NCBI RefSeq assembly: GCF_028714775.1
Contig: NZ_JAQTLS010000007.1
Coordinates: 124,001-188,000 of the forward strand
Direction of reading: 5' to 3'
Length of the DNA: 64,000 bases
DNA from: Thiothrix sp.
GTDB taxonomy: Bacteria > Pseudomonadota > Gammaproteobacteria > Thiotrichales > Thiotrichaceae
The stretch's first letter is position 1; every line of letters begins with the position of its first letter. Shown one piece after another: positions 37,781-42,741 of the stretch. Both the position numbers and the translations under genes were made by a program. A model generated the notes under the pieces. That model was given only the letters and a program-made list of their open reading frames with translations. It had not been told where the DNA came from and ran no database searches.

Positions 37781-38464
37781 CTAACGTTCCCGCGCCAACA
37801 CCCCATCCGTAATCCGGTAAATGGTATCCATCCGGCTCGCCAATTGCAGGTCATGGGTGACGACCACAAACGCGGTTTTCAGCACATCGTTCAGACCTTG
37901 CATCAAGTTGAAGACATTTTCAGCAGTGTTTTGGTCGAGATTGCCGGTTGGTTCATCGGCTAACACCGCTTGCGGACGTGTGACCAACGCCCGCGCAATC
38001 GCCGCACGTTGGCGCTCACCGCCGGAAAGTTGCGCCGGTTTATGCTCCAAACGCTCCCCCAAACCCACTTTGTCTAGGATGCTGGCGGCTTGCTGGCTGG
38101 CATCCGCGACTTTTACACCCCGGATCAACAAGGGCATGGCAACATTTTCCAGCGCGGTGAATTCTGGCAGCAGATGATGGAACTGGTAAATGAAGCCCAT
38201 CGACTCGTTACGTAATATCCCACGTTCGGTGTCAGAAAGCTGATCCATGCGCTTGCCCAACACCTCCACATGCCCGCTGGAGGGTAAATCCAGCCCGCCC
38301 ATGATGTGCAGTAAGGTACTTTTACCGCTGCCGGAACTGCCCAAAATGGCAACCTTTTCACCGGCATGTACCTGCAAATCAACGCCGCGCAATACATGCA
38401 CATCCAAACGGCCTTCCTGAAAACGTTTCCCGACTTTTTCGCAGGAAATGATCACATTACTCAT
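37781..38464 (-). CDS. lolD: Lipoprotein-releasing ABC transporter ATPase LolD
   Basis: 227-residue ATPase that drives release of outer-membrane lipoproteins from the inner membrane to LolA. Walker A LGSSGSGKST, signature LSGGERQRAAIARAL, Walker B AVLADEPTGNLD and the LolD-typical H-loop VVVTHDLQLA are seen. I use ATG 38464, which gives MSNVIISCEKVGKRF and overlaps the permease stop by 8 bases. The partner permeases lie directly upstream. Confidence 0.95.
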   Translation of the reverse strand: MSNVIISCEKVGKRFQEGRLDVHVLRGVDLQVHAGEKVAILGSSGSGKSTLLHIMGGLDLPSSGHVEVLGKRMDQLSDTERGILRNESMGFIYQFHHLLPEFTALENVAMPLLIRGVKVADASQQAASILDKVGLGERLEHKPAQLSGGERQRAAIARALVTRPQAVLADEPTGNLDQNTAENVFNLMQGLNDVLKTAFVVVTHDLQLASRMDTIYRITDGVLARER

Positions 38465-39722
38465 AGCGCAGAGCCTCCGCAGGTTGGACTTTGGACGCAC
38501 GCCATGCCGGATAAAGCGTCGCCAGAATGGACATAAGCAGCGAACTGAAGGCAATCAACACCACATCGCTGACGTTAACGCGCGACTCCAGTTCACTAAT
38601 GAAATAAACATCGGAATTAATGAAATGGGTATCAAACAAACGTTCCAGCAACGGCACAATCACATCCAGATTAGCCGCCAACAATACCCCCAACACTACT
38701 CCAACGGCTGTACCAACCACGCCAATCAGCGTGCCTTGCACCATGAAAATTTTCATCACCCGCCCGGAAGACAAGCCCAGCGTGCGCAAGATGGCAATAT
38801 CACCTTCTTTATCTGTGACCACCATCACCAGCGTAGATACCAGATTGAATGCAGCTACCGCGACGATCAGCAGCAGGATAATGAACATCACCGACTTCTG
38901 TGACTGGATGGCTTTGAATTGGTTTTCGTTCAAATGCGTCCAATCGCTGACCCACATATCTGTCCACGTCTGCCCCATGCGGTCTAAAATGGCTTTGGCG
39001 GTTTTCGGTGCGAGGTATAGATCATCCAATTTCAAACGCAAGCCCGTAACTTCACCGCCCAGATCGAACGCGGTCATAGCATCATCCAGATGGATATAGG
39101 CAAACGAAGAATCGTATTGCTGCATGTCCACGCGGAAAATCGCGGCGATGCTGAAACGTTGCAACACCGGCAACTCACCCGTTTCCAACGCCCCTTCGGT
39201 CGGGCTGATCAAGGTCAGGGAATCGCCCACGTCAACTTTGAGTTCCCGCGCCAAGGTTGAACCAATGGCAATCTTGAAACTGCCCGATGTCAACGCCTGC
39301 ATATCGCCTTTGATGACGTGCTTGAAAACCGCACTGACTTGGCTTTCCAGTTCCGGTCGCACACCTTGCAACAGCGCACCACGAGCTTCATCACCCTGAT
39401 TCAGCATTGCGGGCTTTTCCACAAACGGGGAAACAGCTTTTACGTGCGGAAACTCCAACAACTTGCCGCGCACAGCCTGCCAATCCGCGACCGAAGCATC
39501 CGCTTCCGAGACTGTTACGTGGGCAAACATACCCAGCACACGCTCACGCATGGTCTGTTCAAAGCCATTCATCACCGACAGCACCGTGATCAGCACCAAT
39601 ACGCCAATCGCAATCCCAGTCATGGAGGCCAAAGAAATGAAAGAAATGAAATGCTTTTGCCGCCGCGCACGGGTATAGCGCCAGCCAACCGACAACTCCA
39701 GCGGGTGGAACAAACTATTCAT
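38457..39722 (-). CDS. lolE: Lipoprotein-releasing transporter membrane subunit LolE-like
   Basis: 421 residues from ATG 39722 (MNSLFHPLELSVGWRYTRAR); an extended frame to 39923 overlaps the upstream permease. Four membrane helices: one near residues 25-48 and three in the FtsX-like C-terminal domain (MFIILLLIVAVAAFNLVSTL, GTLIGVVGTAVGVVLGVLLA and the last near 385-405). The large periplasmic MacB-like domain separates them. Which of the two permeases is LolC and which LolE is by order only; it is a paralogue of the next gene. Confidence 0.88.
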   Translation of the reverse strand: MNSLFHPLELSVGWRYTRARRQKHFISFISLASMTGIAIGVLVLITVLSVMNGFEQTMRERVLGMFAHVTVSEADASVADWQAVRGKLLEFPHVKAVSPFVEKPAMLNQGDEARGALLQGVRPELESQVSAVFKHVIKGDMQALTSGSFKIAIGSTLARELKVDVGDSLTLISPTEGALETGELPVLQRFSIAAIFRVDMQQYDSSFAYIHLDDAMTAFDLGGEVTGLRLKLDDLYLAPKTAKAILDRMGQTWTDMWVSDWTHLNENQFKAIQSQKSVMFIILLLIVAVAAFNLVSTLVMVVTDKEGDIAILRTLGLSSGRVMKIFMVQGTLIGVVGTAVGVVLGVLLAANLDVIVPLLERLFDTHFINSDVYFISELESRVNVSDVVLIAFSSLLMSILATLYPAWRASKVQPAEALRYE

Positions 39723-40962
39723 AACGCAATGACTCCGCTGGCTGGATTTGGGCGGCACGCCGCGCCGGATAAACCGTTGCCAGCACCGATGCAACCAACG
39801 ATGCGATGGTAATCCACGCCACGTTTTCCCAACGCAAATCGGACGGGATTTCACTGATGTAGAACAAATCAGCGGAGAACACCTTGAAGCCAAAGGTTGC
39901 CTCCAGCCATGCCATGACCACACTGATATTGAGTGACAGCAATACGCCCAAGGTCACACCCACGACAGTGCCTACCACGCCGATAATGCTGCCTTGTATC
40001 ATGAAAATCCGCATCACACGCTGCCCTGACATGCCGAAGGTGCGCAGGATAGCAATGTCCGATTCCTTGTCATTCACCGCCATCATCAGCGATGCCACCA
40101 GATTGAACAACGCCACGCACACTACCAAGAACAGGATCATGGTCATGGCAATGCGTTCTGTTTTGACCGCACGGAACAGGCTGCCGTGTTCCTCACTCCA
40201 ATCTGTGACCTTGTAGGCGTCGCCCAATTCGGCTTGCAAATCTGCTTTCAAACTTTGCGCCGCAAACAAGTTATCCAGCTTCAGGCGGATACCACCGACA
40301 TCTTCACCCAAACGGAACAGGCGCGATGCATCCCCCAACTCAACAAATCCGGTCATGCCATCGTATTCAGGATGCCCAATCTGATAAATCCCCACCACGG
40401 TAAATCGGCGGATGCGCGGCAAAATCCCAGCAGGCGTCACCTGCACTTGCGGCACGATTACCGTTACCTTGTCACCAGGCATAACGCCCAAGCCTGAGGC
40501 GACTTCAACGCCCAAGACGATGCCGTATTCGTGCGGTTTGAGATTGAAGAAACTGCCATCCAACATACTGAAATCAACGTCACTGACCTGTCCCTGCTGC
40601 GCGGGGTCAACCCCGTTCAACATCACGGCACGCATCTTAGTGCCATTGGTCAGCATGACTTGTTTTTGTACGTAGGGAGCCGCACCAATAACATGCTTGG
40701 TGTTCCTTAGCCGCTCCATTTGCGCCGTCCAGTCGGAGAGTTGCCCATTTGTCCCCGAAACCGTGACATGCGCAACCACACCCAGTATCTTGTCCCTGAG
40801 TTCCTTTTCAAAACCGTTCATGATCGACAAAACAGTGATCAGCACCATAACGCCCAGCATGATGCCGAGCATCGAGGCGAACGAGATGAACGAGATGAAA
40901 CGGTTGCGCCGCCGTGAGTGCGTGTAACGCTGACCGATAAATAATTCGAGTGGTGTAAACAT
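39715..40962 (-). CDS. lolC: Lipoprotein-releasing transporter membrane subunit LolC-like
   Basis: 415 residues. MFTPLELFIGQRYTHSRRRN is the typical start of LolC/E proteins. It has one N-terminal helix, a periplasmic domain and three C-terminal helices (ILFLVVCVALFNLVASLMMA, GSIIGVVGTVVGVTLGVLL). It overlaps the second permease by 8 bases. The gene order here is C-E-D, whereas E. coli has C-D-E. It is the first gene of the Lol-thiL run. Confidence 0.88.
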   Translation of the reverse strand: MFTPLELFIGQRYTHSRRRNRFISFISFASMLGIMLGVMVLITVLSIMNGFEKELRDKILGVVAHVTVSGTNGQLSDWTAQMERLRNTKHVIGAAPYVQKQVMLTNGTKMRAVMLNGVDPAQQGQVSDVDFSMLDGSFFNLKPHEYGIVLGVEVASGLGVMPGDKVTVIVPQVQVTPAGILPRIRRFTVVGIYQIGHPEYDGMTGFVELGDASRLFRLGEDVGGIRLKLDNLFAAQSLKADLQAELGDAYKVTDWSEEHGSLFRAVKTERIAMTMILFLVVCVALFNLVASLMMAVNDKESDIAILRTFGMSGQRVMRIFMIQGSIIGVVGTVVGVTLGVLLSLNISVVMAWLEATFGFKVFSADLFYISEIPSDLRWENVAWITIASLVASVLATVYPARRAAQIQPAESLRYE

Positions 40963-41047: not shown

Positions 41048-41296
41048 ATGCGTCTATCCAAATGGTTTGCCGCTTTTTTACTTTGCGTGCCATTTTTTGT
41101 AACTTCTGCCTTTGCCGACTACCCCGACCGTGGCATGAAAATGAGTGCCGTCAAGGCGCAGTACGGAGCACCCTACTCCGTGCGCGTCTCCAAAGGCAAG
41201 GTCAAAAAGCAATGGCCACGCATTACGGTGTGGCATTATGGCAAATTTTCAGTGTACTTTGAACGCAATACCGTGCTGCATACGGTCGTGCGGTGA
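41048..41296 (+). CDS. Small exported BamE/SmpA-like protein
   Basis: 82 residues with a signal peptide (residues 1-23, ending AFA). The mature part GMKMSAVKAQYGAPYSVRVS followed by ITVWHYGKFSVYFERNTVLHTVV has the pattern of the small BamE/SmpA fold (a G-x-V-x-x-x-x-G-x-P helix, then a W-x-Y-x-x-F-x-V-x-F strand). No lipobox Cys is seen, so it is periplasmic rather than lipidated. The ATG is preceded by GGGAG. It ends 5 bases before the stop of the convergent ATP-grasp gene. Confidence 0.65.
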   Translation: MRLSKWFAAFLLCVPFFVTSAFADYPDRGMKMSAVKAQYGAPYSVRVSKGKVKKQWPRITVWHYGKFSVYFERNTVLHTVVR

Positions 41297-41301
41297 GAAT
41301 T

Positions 41302-42162
41302 TCAGGCCAGTAACCAATCCAGCATAGCTTCACACAATGCCCCATCGGCAGCTTGGTCGAAACCGGCAAACATGGGGTTGGTGTTGATTTCCAGAAATTG
41401 CAGCTTACCCCTGGCGGGGTCGGTTTTGAAGTCCGCTGCGGCAAAATCCAACCCCAAACAGTCGGACAGTTTGCCCATTTTGTCCTGAAGCTCGGCAGGC
41501 ACGGTGGTTTGTTCCAGCCGTGTGGTTGCTGAAGTGCGGTAATCCAGCGCATCTGAAACGACCCAAAACCCAAACCACGCATCCCCTACCCGGAACACGC
41601 GCATTTCCGGCTGCTGCAACTTACGCTGCACAATCTGCGGATGCGACAACGGAAATGCCCAGCCGGAAACTGCCAACTCCTCGCAATGCGCACCACCTGT
41701 CACGGGCTTACCGATCCAGTCGTGTGTCGCAGCCAGCCGATCCATCAACGTACCATCATTAGTAACGCCAGTATCCGCGATGTCCAACCCTACTGACAAA
41801 GCAAGGTGCAGCACATGCGGCTTGTTGACCCCGCCCCGCCCGAGGTAGAGGCGGTTGAATACCTTTACGTCTGGGGAAGCTAGCAACCAGCCTGCAACAG
41901 TAGCGTACCATTCGCGGGCAGCAATCTGATCCTGCGGATTATTGCTTTTCAAGTAGCCGAACACATCCTGACGGATGAACGCGGCCTTCGGTTTGATTTC
42001 CCGCTTACCGTCCACCAGCCGATGCGCCTTGATGTCCCAACGCAAACAGGGCAGCCCTGATTGCCCCGTCAACAAGGTGTCAACAGCTATCCCCATCCTT
42101 GCGGCATACCGGAGTAAGCGGAGAATCTGCAAATCGGCGTCACCGCCAGCGAGTAATAGCAT
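41302..42162 (-). CDS. ATP-grasp ligase, probable graspetide (omega-ester peptide) synthetase
   Basis: 286 residues. The central and C-terminal parts match the MvdC/MvdD-type ATP-grasp ligases that make side-chain esters or amides on a precursor peptide: AREWYATVAGWLLASPDVKV, NRLYLGRGGVNKPHVLHLAL, LDIADTGVTND and the metal-binding LDFAAADFKTD with LQFLEINTNPMF. The first 45 residues (MLLLAGGDADLQILRLLRYA) do not look like the usual MdnC start. It lies 33 bases after a precursor gene with TTxxxxEE cores, on the same strand, and AAGG stands 9 bases before ATG 42162. Predicted reaction: Glu carboxyl phosphorylation and ester closure to Thr hydroxyls. Function is inferred from the pair. Confidence 0.82.
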   Translation of the reverse strand: MLLLAGGDADLQILRLLRYAARMGIAVDTLLTGQSGLPCLRWDIKAHRLVDGKREIKPKAAFIRQDVFGYLKSNNPQDQIAAREWYATVAGWLLASPDVKVFNRLYLGRGGVNKPHVLHLALSVGLDIADTGVTNDGTLMDRLAATHDWIGKPVTGGAHCEELAVSGWAFPLSHPQIVQRKLQQPEMRVFRVGDAWFGFWVVSDALDYRTSATTRLEQTTVPAELQDKMGKLSDCLGLDFAAADFKTDPARGKLQFLEINTNPMFAGFDQAADGALCEAMLDWLLA

Positions 42163-42195
42163 CAGGGCTTACCTTGCTAAAACAAAGGGTTGTTA

Positions 42196-42651
42196 TTATT
42201 CCTCACCCAACGCCATGGTAGTAAATGTACCGGGTGGTAAGGGTTTGGGCAGCGGTGGATCACAGACGACAGGTGGTTTTGGCACGGGTGGATCGCAAAC
42301 CACTGGCGGCTTGGGTGGTTTTGGCTGGCATCCTGTCCCGCCATCTTCCTCACCCACCATCATAGTCGTAACATCCGTTGGCGGGCGCGGCTTAGGTTTT
42401 TCCGGTTTACAGCCCGTGCCGCCGTCTTCTTCACCCACCATCATGGTCGTAACATCGGTTGGCGGTTGCGGTTTAGGGCTGCAACCCTTGGAATGCTTAG
42501 TGTTGGCAATCAATTGCTGCATCAAATTTTGCACAGCTTCCATCTGTCCATGCAGCAGGTCAACCCCAGTACCACAGCCTCGGATTGAGTGCTTAGCGGT
42601 TTCCGTCTGGATGGGGCTGCAAGTGGGTCTGTTTTGCGAAATTCTATCCAT
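42196..42651 (-). CDS. Graspetide precursor with three TTxxxxEE cores (plesiocin-like)
   Basis: 151 residues. The leader (about 1-55) contains a helix VDLLHGQMEAVQNLMQQLIA. Three core motifs follow: TTMMVGEED (42450-42427), TTMMVGEED (42369-42346) and the terminal TTMALGEE (42222-42199). Cores 1 and 2 are 27 residues apart in near-identical units (DVTTMMVGEEDGGTGC); linkers are rich in Pro, Lys and Cys (PKPPVVCDPP twice). TTxxxxEE is the core of plesiocin-group graspetides, where Thr and Glu form two esters per hairpin. ATG 42651 is preceded by AGGAG at 9 bases; the gene ends in two stop codons. Six or more Cys may form disulfides, an unusual extra. No protease or transporter gene lies nearby. 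Confidence 0.85.
   Translation of the reverse strand: MDRISQNRPTCSPIQTETAKHSIRGCGTGVDLLHGQMEAVQNLMQQLIANTKHSKGCSPKPQPPTDVTTMMVGEEDGGTGCKPEKPKPRPPTDVTTMMVGEEDGGTGCQPKPPKPPVVCDPPVPKPPVVCDPPLPKPLPPGTFTTMALGEE
42346..42450 (-). repeat. 81-base direct repeat carrying graspetide cores 1 and 2
   Basis: The stretch encoding PPTDVTTMMVGEEDGGTGC occurs twice with a period of 81 bases and only a few third-position changes (for example AGT against GGT on the plus strand). It indicates core duplication within the precursor. Confidence 0.85.
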
Positions 42652-42741
42652 GAGGCATCACTCCTTAATCGCTTTTTGTCGATAACAAGCTGACGGCGAT
42701 CCTTCGCACATCAGCACTCCCAGAATACTCCGAAACGATCA

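Follow-up and report, generated by a model that had tools for sequence, protein, structure and literature searches.

What does the two-gene locus described here make, and does its product leave the cell as small peptides or as a tail on whole proteins? The locus lies in a stretch of 64,000 nucleotides (the window) from a sulfur-oxidising Thiothrix and consists of two adjoining ORFs, a precursor gene followed after 33 nt by a ligase gene. We read this pair as a plesiocin-type graspetide locus, with a probability of roughly 87%, on the basis of the gene pair itself, the homology of ligase and cores, conservation among relatives and the predicted fold of the ligase. Both genes are on the minus strand, as are all features for which coordinates in the pair are given below.

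The precursor ORF (42196-42651) encodes 151 aa with three TTxxxGEE cores and was assigned from the frame itself, the motif count and homologous precursors. Cores 1 and 2 (TTMMVGEE at residues 68 and 95; 42427..42450 and 42346..42369) are each followed by D, and core 3 (TTMALGEE at residue 144; 42199..42222) forms the final eight residues of the protein. Cores 1 and 2 each sit in a copy of an 81-nt tandem repeat (42306..42467), the two copies being 79% identical by DNA comparison, and the linkers between cores appear by eye to be rich in Cys and Pro. A Shine-Dalgarno-like AAGGAG (42661..42666) stands ahead of the precursor start, and the ligase start codon is preceded by AAGG. The preliminary description had reported a 151-residue gene with three TTxxxxEE motifs and a 33-base gap, and NKP...TGVTND and FLEIN motifs in the ligase; the frames and motifs are present as it described them, the latter two both in the 286-aa ORF.

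It might be argued that such short motifs arise by chance. However, in 100,000 residue shuffles of the window precursor three TT....EE motifs were never obtained. Written as a DNA pattern, TTxxxGEE matches three times in the 4.3-Mb genome of the host, all inside the precursor gene. The backwards control pattern likewise matches three times, so it is the clustering in one gene that is informative and not the count. When searched against its own genome the precursor matches once, and the ligase gives one strong match together with two weak ones (E 0.1 and 0.5). A scan for promoters and terminators gave four promoter-like sites against 1.4 expected and two terminator-like sites against 2.3 expected. 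No domain is recognised by Pfam in the window precursor (E<=0.01). With the whole window precursor as query PsnA2 was not matched in the PDB; a match to lactoferrin at E 1.2 was set aside as chance.

A 26-position core profile built from five sequences has PsnA2 as its sole match among 177,635 PDB sequences at E<=10. The match (residues 14-38, core TTLAIGEE) is weak at E 0.12 because only eight residues align, and this PsnA2 core is identical to the cores of several Thiothrix precursors. We compared 18 distinct precursors, from which same-genome duplicates and a truncated copy (L019) had been dropped. Here [ST]T stands at plesiocin spacing before 46 of 46 GEE triplets. Conversely, 47 of 64 EE pairs are preceded by [ST]T, and EE stands at +6 of 44 out of 58 TT pairs. 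Separate column counts over the cores are partly forced by the motif search expression, and positions that it leaves free are conserved too (A4 in 39/46, D9 in 41/46). The earlier assignment to the plesiocin group is supported by the profile match to PsnA2 and by PsnB as the nearest solved ligase. Upstream of the cores, alignment of leaders outlines a putative leader segment at residues 31-50 (DLLHGQMEAVQNLMQQLIAN; 42502..42561); with five of 14 relatives the score of the window leader exceeds that of each of 2000 shuffled leaders, and with the remaining nine it does not.

The second gene (41302-42162, 286 aa) is assigned as an ATP-grasp graspetide synthetase from profile searches, invariant residues and an AlphaFold2 model compared by Foldseek. 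In a single-sequence search its best PDB match is PsnB (2.3e-13), followed by MdnB (0.015) and a threonyl-tRNA ligase (1.6). A profile of 12 ligases matches six PDB sequences at E<=0.01, namely PsnB (1.6e-25), AMdnB, CdnC, MdnC, MdnB and PruB. All six, PruB included, are graspetide synthetases, and no RimK-like PDB sequence is found at this threshold. The preliminary description had proposed a profile search and named placement with RimK or glutathione synthetase as evidence against its reading; with PsnB first, the opposite was observed. Among the NCBIfam families GRASP_SAV_5884 comes first (2.5e-17) and then MvdC and MvdD, families fitting a graspetide synthetase but all matched well under the curated cut-offs; the match to TIGR04187 reaches 63 of 350 bits, far under its cut-off, and counts against the assignment. 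Pfam gives no match for the ligase.

Results at the level of structure point in the same direction. The AlphaFold2 model of the ligase (from eight sequences) has a pLDDT of 90.2, and Foldseek ranks 1 to 31 are all chains of PsnB, PruB, AMdnB, CdnC, MdnC and MdnB; the top match is PsnB (E 1.2e-19, TM 0.77, rmsd 4.7). Ten residues are invariant in the 12 ligases (K152, G156, G157, R188, D207, R209, D244, K246, E258 and N260) and align in the profile alignment with identical residues of PsnB; in line with ATP-grasp enzymes in general, they would serve ATP, metal or substrate binding. The window ligase falls 48 aa short of PsnB in length, and the two share 22-24% identity in structural alignment. 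PsnB is the nearest among the solved ligases, and in the tree the window clade stands apart from the distant ligase of another family genome (G050), which is itself closer to PsnB.

By sequence profile and predicted fold, the window ligase is graspetide-synthetase-like and does not belong with the RimK or glutathione synthetase families. This bears on the proposal that the enzyme adds amino acids to a Glu-rich tail as RimK does, or cross-links separate molecules, so that intramolecular esters would not form. The ATP-grasp fold is common to both kinds of enzyme, the RimK family is among the weak NCBIfam matches (0.0043), and ArgX, LysX and RimK chains appear among the fold matches of the model at rank 32 and beyond (a further MdnB chain follows at rank 36). 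Nonetheless, we consider this proposal very improbable, given that 31 graspetide-ligase chains outrank the first RimK-like chain by fold, that the profile finds no RimK-like PDB sequence at E<=0.01 and that paired Thr accompany the Glu residues in 46 of 46 cases.

In the mechanism that we propose the ATP-grasp enzyme would bind an N-terminal leader helix of the precursor, phosphorylate the Glu side chains of each TTxxxGEE core and join them to two Thr hydroxyls. This would give one bicyclic hairpin per core and up to six esters in the window precursor; we infer the leader function and the formation of two esters per core from sequence. The locus resembles plesiocin (PsnA2/PsnB, graspetide group 2) in its core type, its repeated cores and its single ligase. 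By analogy, a secreted inhibitor of serine proteases is the most likely product, and the pair may constitute a complete minimal pathway, as was proposed earlier.

At E<=1e-8 the ligase is matched in 16 of 63 family genomes, 14 of which belong to the same genus; in 15 the ligase is close (58-100% identity), in the remaining one (G050) it is distant (29%). A core-bearing ORF adjoins the ligase in all 16. Of the 17 pairs measured, 16 have gaps of -32 to 79 nt between the two genes and one has a gap of 547 nt. Precursors can also have a single core (STMACGEE in L011, TTMVVGEE in L012). When about 20 kb was compared for the 14 genus loci, no ORF clusters other than precursor and ligase occurred at every locus, and the next most frequent cluster occurred at nine. 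Among 13 relatives only one (G054; L081/L013) shares the surroundings of the window, with agmatine deiminase genes and LolCDE; in two further genomes an agmatine deiminase gene is found about 6 and 9 kb away. Convergent with the window ligase is an 82-aa ORF (41048-41296) that is 81% identical at the syntenic L081 locus and has no NCBIfam match at E<=1e-5.

The scan of the class gave matches in three of 369 genomes including the own genome, and in the short flanks of the other two (L041, L042) no such core-bearing ORF is visible by eye. The scan of the phylum gave six of 398, again including the own genome, and among the others TTxxxGEE cores in L095 only; the motif expression finds nothing in L096, L097, L098 or L099.

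A comparison of the precursors reveals what the window copy is lacking. In the 18 precursors Pfam recognises (E<=0.01) DUF6174 in 14, RTX repeats in four and DUF3060 in one, with the RTX match just under the Pfam cut-off in at least one of the four, a protein of L010. The DUF6174 carriers were assigned by genome positions in 12 cases, by domain search for L005 and by alignment for L007. Those without DUF6174 are the window precursor, both L010 proteins and the precursor of L025. In all 14 other precursors examined from family members with a window-type ligase, DUF6174, at times together with RTX repeats, follows an N-terminal leader and precedes the cores, of which the C-terminus holds one to four; this order is taken from alignment, with domain positions computed for L005, L011 and L013. 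The L013 precursor, for example, is 303 aa long and has four cores. The leader of these precursors is Ser/Gln-rich and predicted at low confidence to be helical. An AlphaFold2 model of one of them (L006) was too poor for use (pLDDT 51).

In the ligase tree (25 rows, midpoint root) the window ligase groups with L011, L012 and L013 (support 96/99), all three of which have DUF6174 precursors. A wider group of 18 rows (100/100) includes the other Thiothrix ligases and the long branches of L010 and G708. The DNA of window and L013 can be aligned across the upstream gene (84% over 347 nt) and again, starting inside the ligase, downstream (75% over 1388 nt), and within the precursor only short core stretches align. 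Since the window ligase nests among those of DUF6174-type loci and its locus is syntenic with one of them, the simplest reading is that the window precursor is most likely a reduced form that has lost DUF6174 on its own line. An alternative would be replacement by a short precursor similar to that of L025, because the latter is the best protein match (E 2.5e-21, a value that comes partly from repeats with the composition correction off).

L025 (1408-3182) is itself a genus member without a window-type ligase. It has another ligase that is closer to PsnB (PDB E 1.4e-29), and its precursor, with six cores, resembles that of the window; a PDB search with this precursor gave no match.

Given a loss of DUF6174, the question arises whether the window copy is decayed or recombined and its precursor no longer functional. 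The syntenic L013 retains the domain, and the precursor DNA aligns with it in short core segments only, as might be expected of such a copy. We nonetheless regard decay as unlikely: none of the three cores is damaged, the ribosome-binding sites are still in place with the gene order unchanged, and L025 shows that a precursor of leader plus cores without DUF6174 also exists elsewhere. The ligase moreover combines a high dS with a low dN relative to its relatives, with dS saturated (2.4 to 3.6) and dN at 0.18 to 0.31 in the window pairs. In three close ligase pairs dN/dS values are 0.012/0.130, 0.022/0.141 and 0.014/0.181 (a ratio of about 0.08-0.16), and the ligase is under purifying selection. 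For the precursor, whole-gene dN is lower than dS in four of four pairs, all of precursors other than that of the window; the final 60 codons by themselves do not suffice for a judgement, with zero synonymous change in one pair.

With the reduced but intact precursor as the preferred reading, it remains to be asked how the product would leave the cell. The absence of an adjoining protease or exporter, as claimed earlier, agrees with our scan: among seven neighbouring ORFs we find no dedicated exporter or protease, and the ABC genes at 37781-40962 encode LolD and two LolC/E subunits, the general housekeeping sorter of lipoproteins. This differs from group 2, where a linked NHLM/PCAT transporter is often present according to sections of PMC13097080. 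The protease survey of the genus genomes covered peptidase C39, which is matched in five of 16. Both matches in the own genome are on other contigs; one is an ABC exporter with a C39-like domain, read as HlyB-like, and the other reads by eye as a GNAT-type acetyltransferase protein. A linked C39 transporter was therefore rejected, neither being a linked PCAT. As C39 is patchy and the own two matches are unlinked, the pair is not regularly accompanied by a dedicated leader-cutting transporter.

These observations bring in another account of the product, in which the cores are never released and the mature product is the whole protein, exported intact with a cross-linked C-terminal tail. The hairpins would then serve as an anchored inhibitor or as a protease-proof tail, and the window form would be tail and leader only. 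The frequency of DUF6174 (14/18) and RTX (4/18) among the precursors argues for it, as does the patchy and unlinked C39. RTX proteins are exported by the type I route with a signal that is not cleaved off (PMC3034196, PMC6891781), and in some relatives the repeats suggest export by this route. The window precursor, however, has no recognised domain, and no type I genes are seen beside the window locus. Overall we give this account somewhat less than an even chance.

DUF6174 is found in 16 of 16 genus genomes. In the own genome a subtilase (L027:10-1866; Peptidase_S8 6e-61) ends in DUF6174 (4.3e-21), and a small secreted-looking protein (L026) is formed by this domain. The subtilase fusion also occurs in L009 and L078, and DUF6174 frames of 600-672 aa are present in 12 of 16 genus genomes, the protease domain having been examined in three proteins only. 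In two sister genomes about 5 kb separate such a subtilase-length frame from the graspetide pair, and in a third 30 kb; in the remaining genomes it is farther off or on another contig. One may speculate that the DUF6174-subtilase interacts with the graspetide.

Taken jointly, the observations allow a reading that we put forward tentatively, as one that is more probably wrong than right. The hairpins would modify whole secreted proteins and not small peptides. The leader would recruit the ligase across the DUF6174 (and RTX) stretch, a distance of about 150 residues at least, and the protein would be exported still bearing its cross-linked tail, which would act as an anchored inhibitor of proteases; the DUF6174-ended subtilase in the same genomes could be partner or target. 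The window copy would then be a natural deletion, suggesting that the pair can do without the carrier. If the cores indeed stay on secreted carriers, graspetide chemistry would be a means of finishing extracellular proteins and not only of making peptides. Precursors in the family range from one to six cores (perhaps nine in L095) and come both with and without the inserted domain; with these as natural substrates, leader-to-core distance, core number and the role of the carrier become testable with small two-gene constructs. The uncharacterised DUF6174 also gains a functional context where a serine protease bears the same domain.

Literature searches for graspetides in Thiothrix and for DUF6174 returned nothing, and Thiothrix with RiPP returned off-topic papers only. 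Lee 2020 and Ramesh 2021 are reportedly the founding papers of graspetide genome mining. Graspetide cores on DUF6174/RTX carriers may be unreported, although the founding surveys and supplements could list these loci. Such precursors are not described in the available portions of PMC8939145, PMC13097080, PMC13003496 and PMC12291112. The main text of PMC8939145 does not mention DUF6174, RTX, hemolysin or Thiothrix; the main-text sections of PMC13097080 on large-precursor groups do not mention DUF6174 or RTX, its supplements could contain the clade, and Thiothrix is not mentioned in the portions available.

Some known systems come close. Corallotide group 15 and groups 34, 35 and 41 likewise have long precursors with repeated cross-linked motifs, as sections of PMC13097080 describe, but corallotide has KxxxD isopeptides and an oxygenase, unlike the Thiothrix clade, and groups 34, 35 and 41 are too briefly described there to be matched. 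Cyclisation engineered with ThfB shows a graspetide ligase acting on folded-protein substrates (PMC12291112, in part); those constructs are engineered whereas the Thiothrix fusion is natural. Plesiocin-type chemistry is already known, and it is the carrier-protein architecture that looks new: in contrast to plesiocin, the Thiothrix relatives insert DUF6174/RTX between leader and cores.

A few further loci were encountered in more distant genomes. In another class of the same phylum (G708, L095:1492-3408) a 337-aa precursor with nine matches of the motif expression adjoins a 300-aa window-type ligase. A Melainabacteria MAG (L010:5980-10926) has two window-type ligases and, on the opposite strand, two TTxxxGEE proteins with their cores in mid-protein, one of which matches DUF3060 and, under the threshold, RTX. 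A search of 72,556 plasmid records yielded two distant ligases. On a plasmid of the haloarchaeon Halocatena salina (L093:3183-4531) an unannotated frame ends in TTMAMGEE plus nine residues; next come a PsnB-like ATP-grasp gene and another gene that matches M50 peptidases weakly; judged from these frames it is a possible archaeal plesiocin-type locus. Finally, repeated TKT...SDD/ADD motifs precede ATP-grasp genes on a Sinorhizobium plasmid (L092:3458-4795) and in a member of the window's class (L098:633-2103, motif read by eye), which probably represent another graspetide group.
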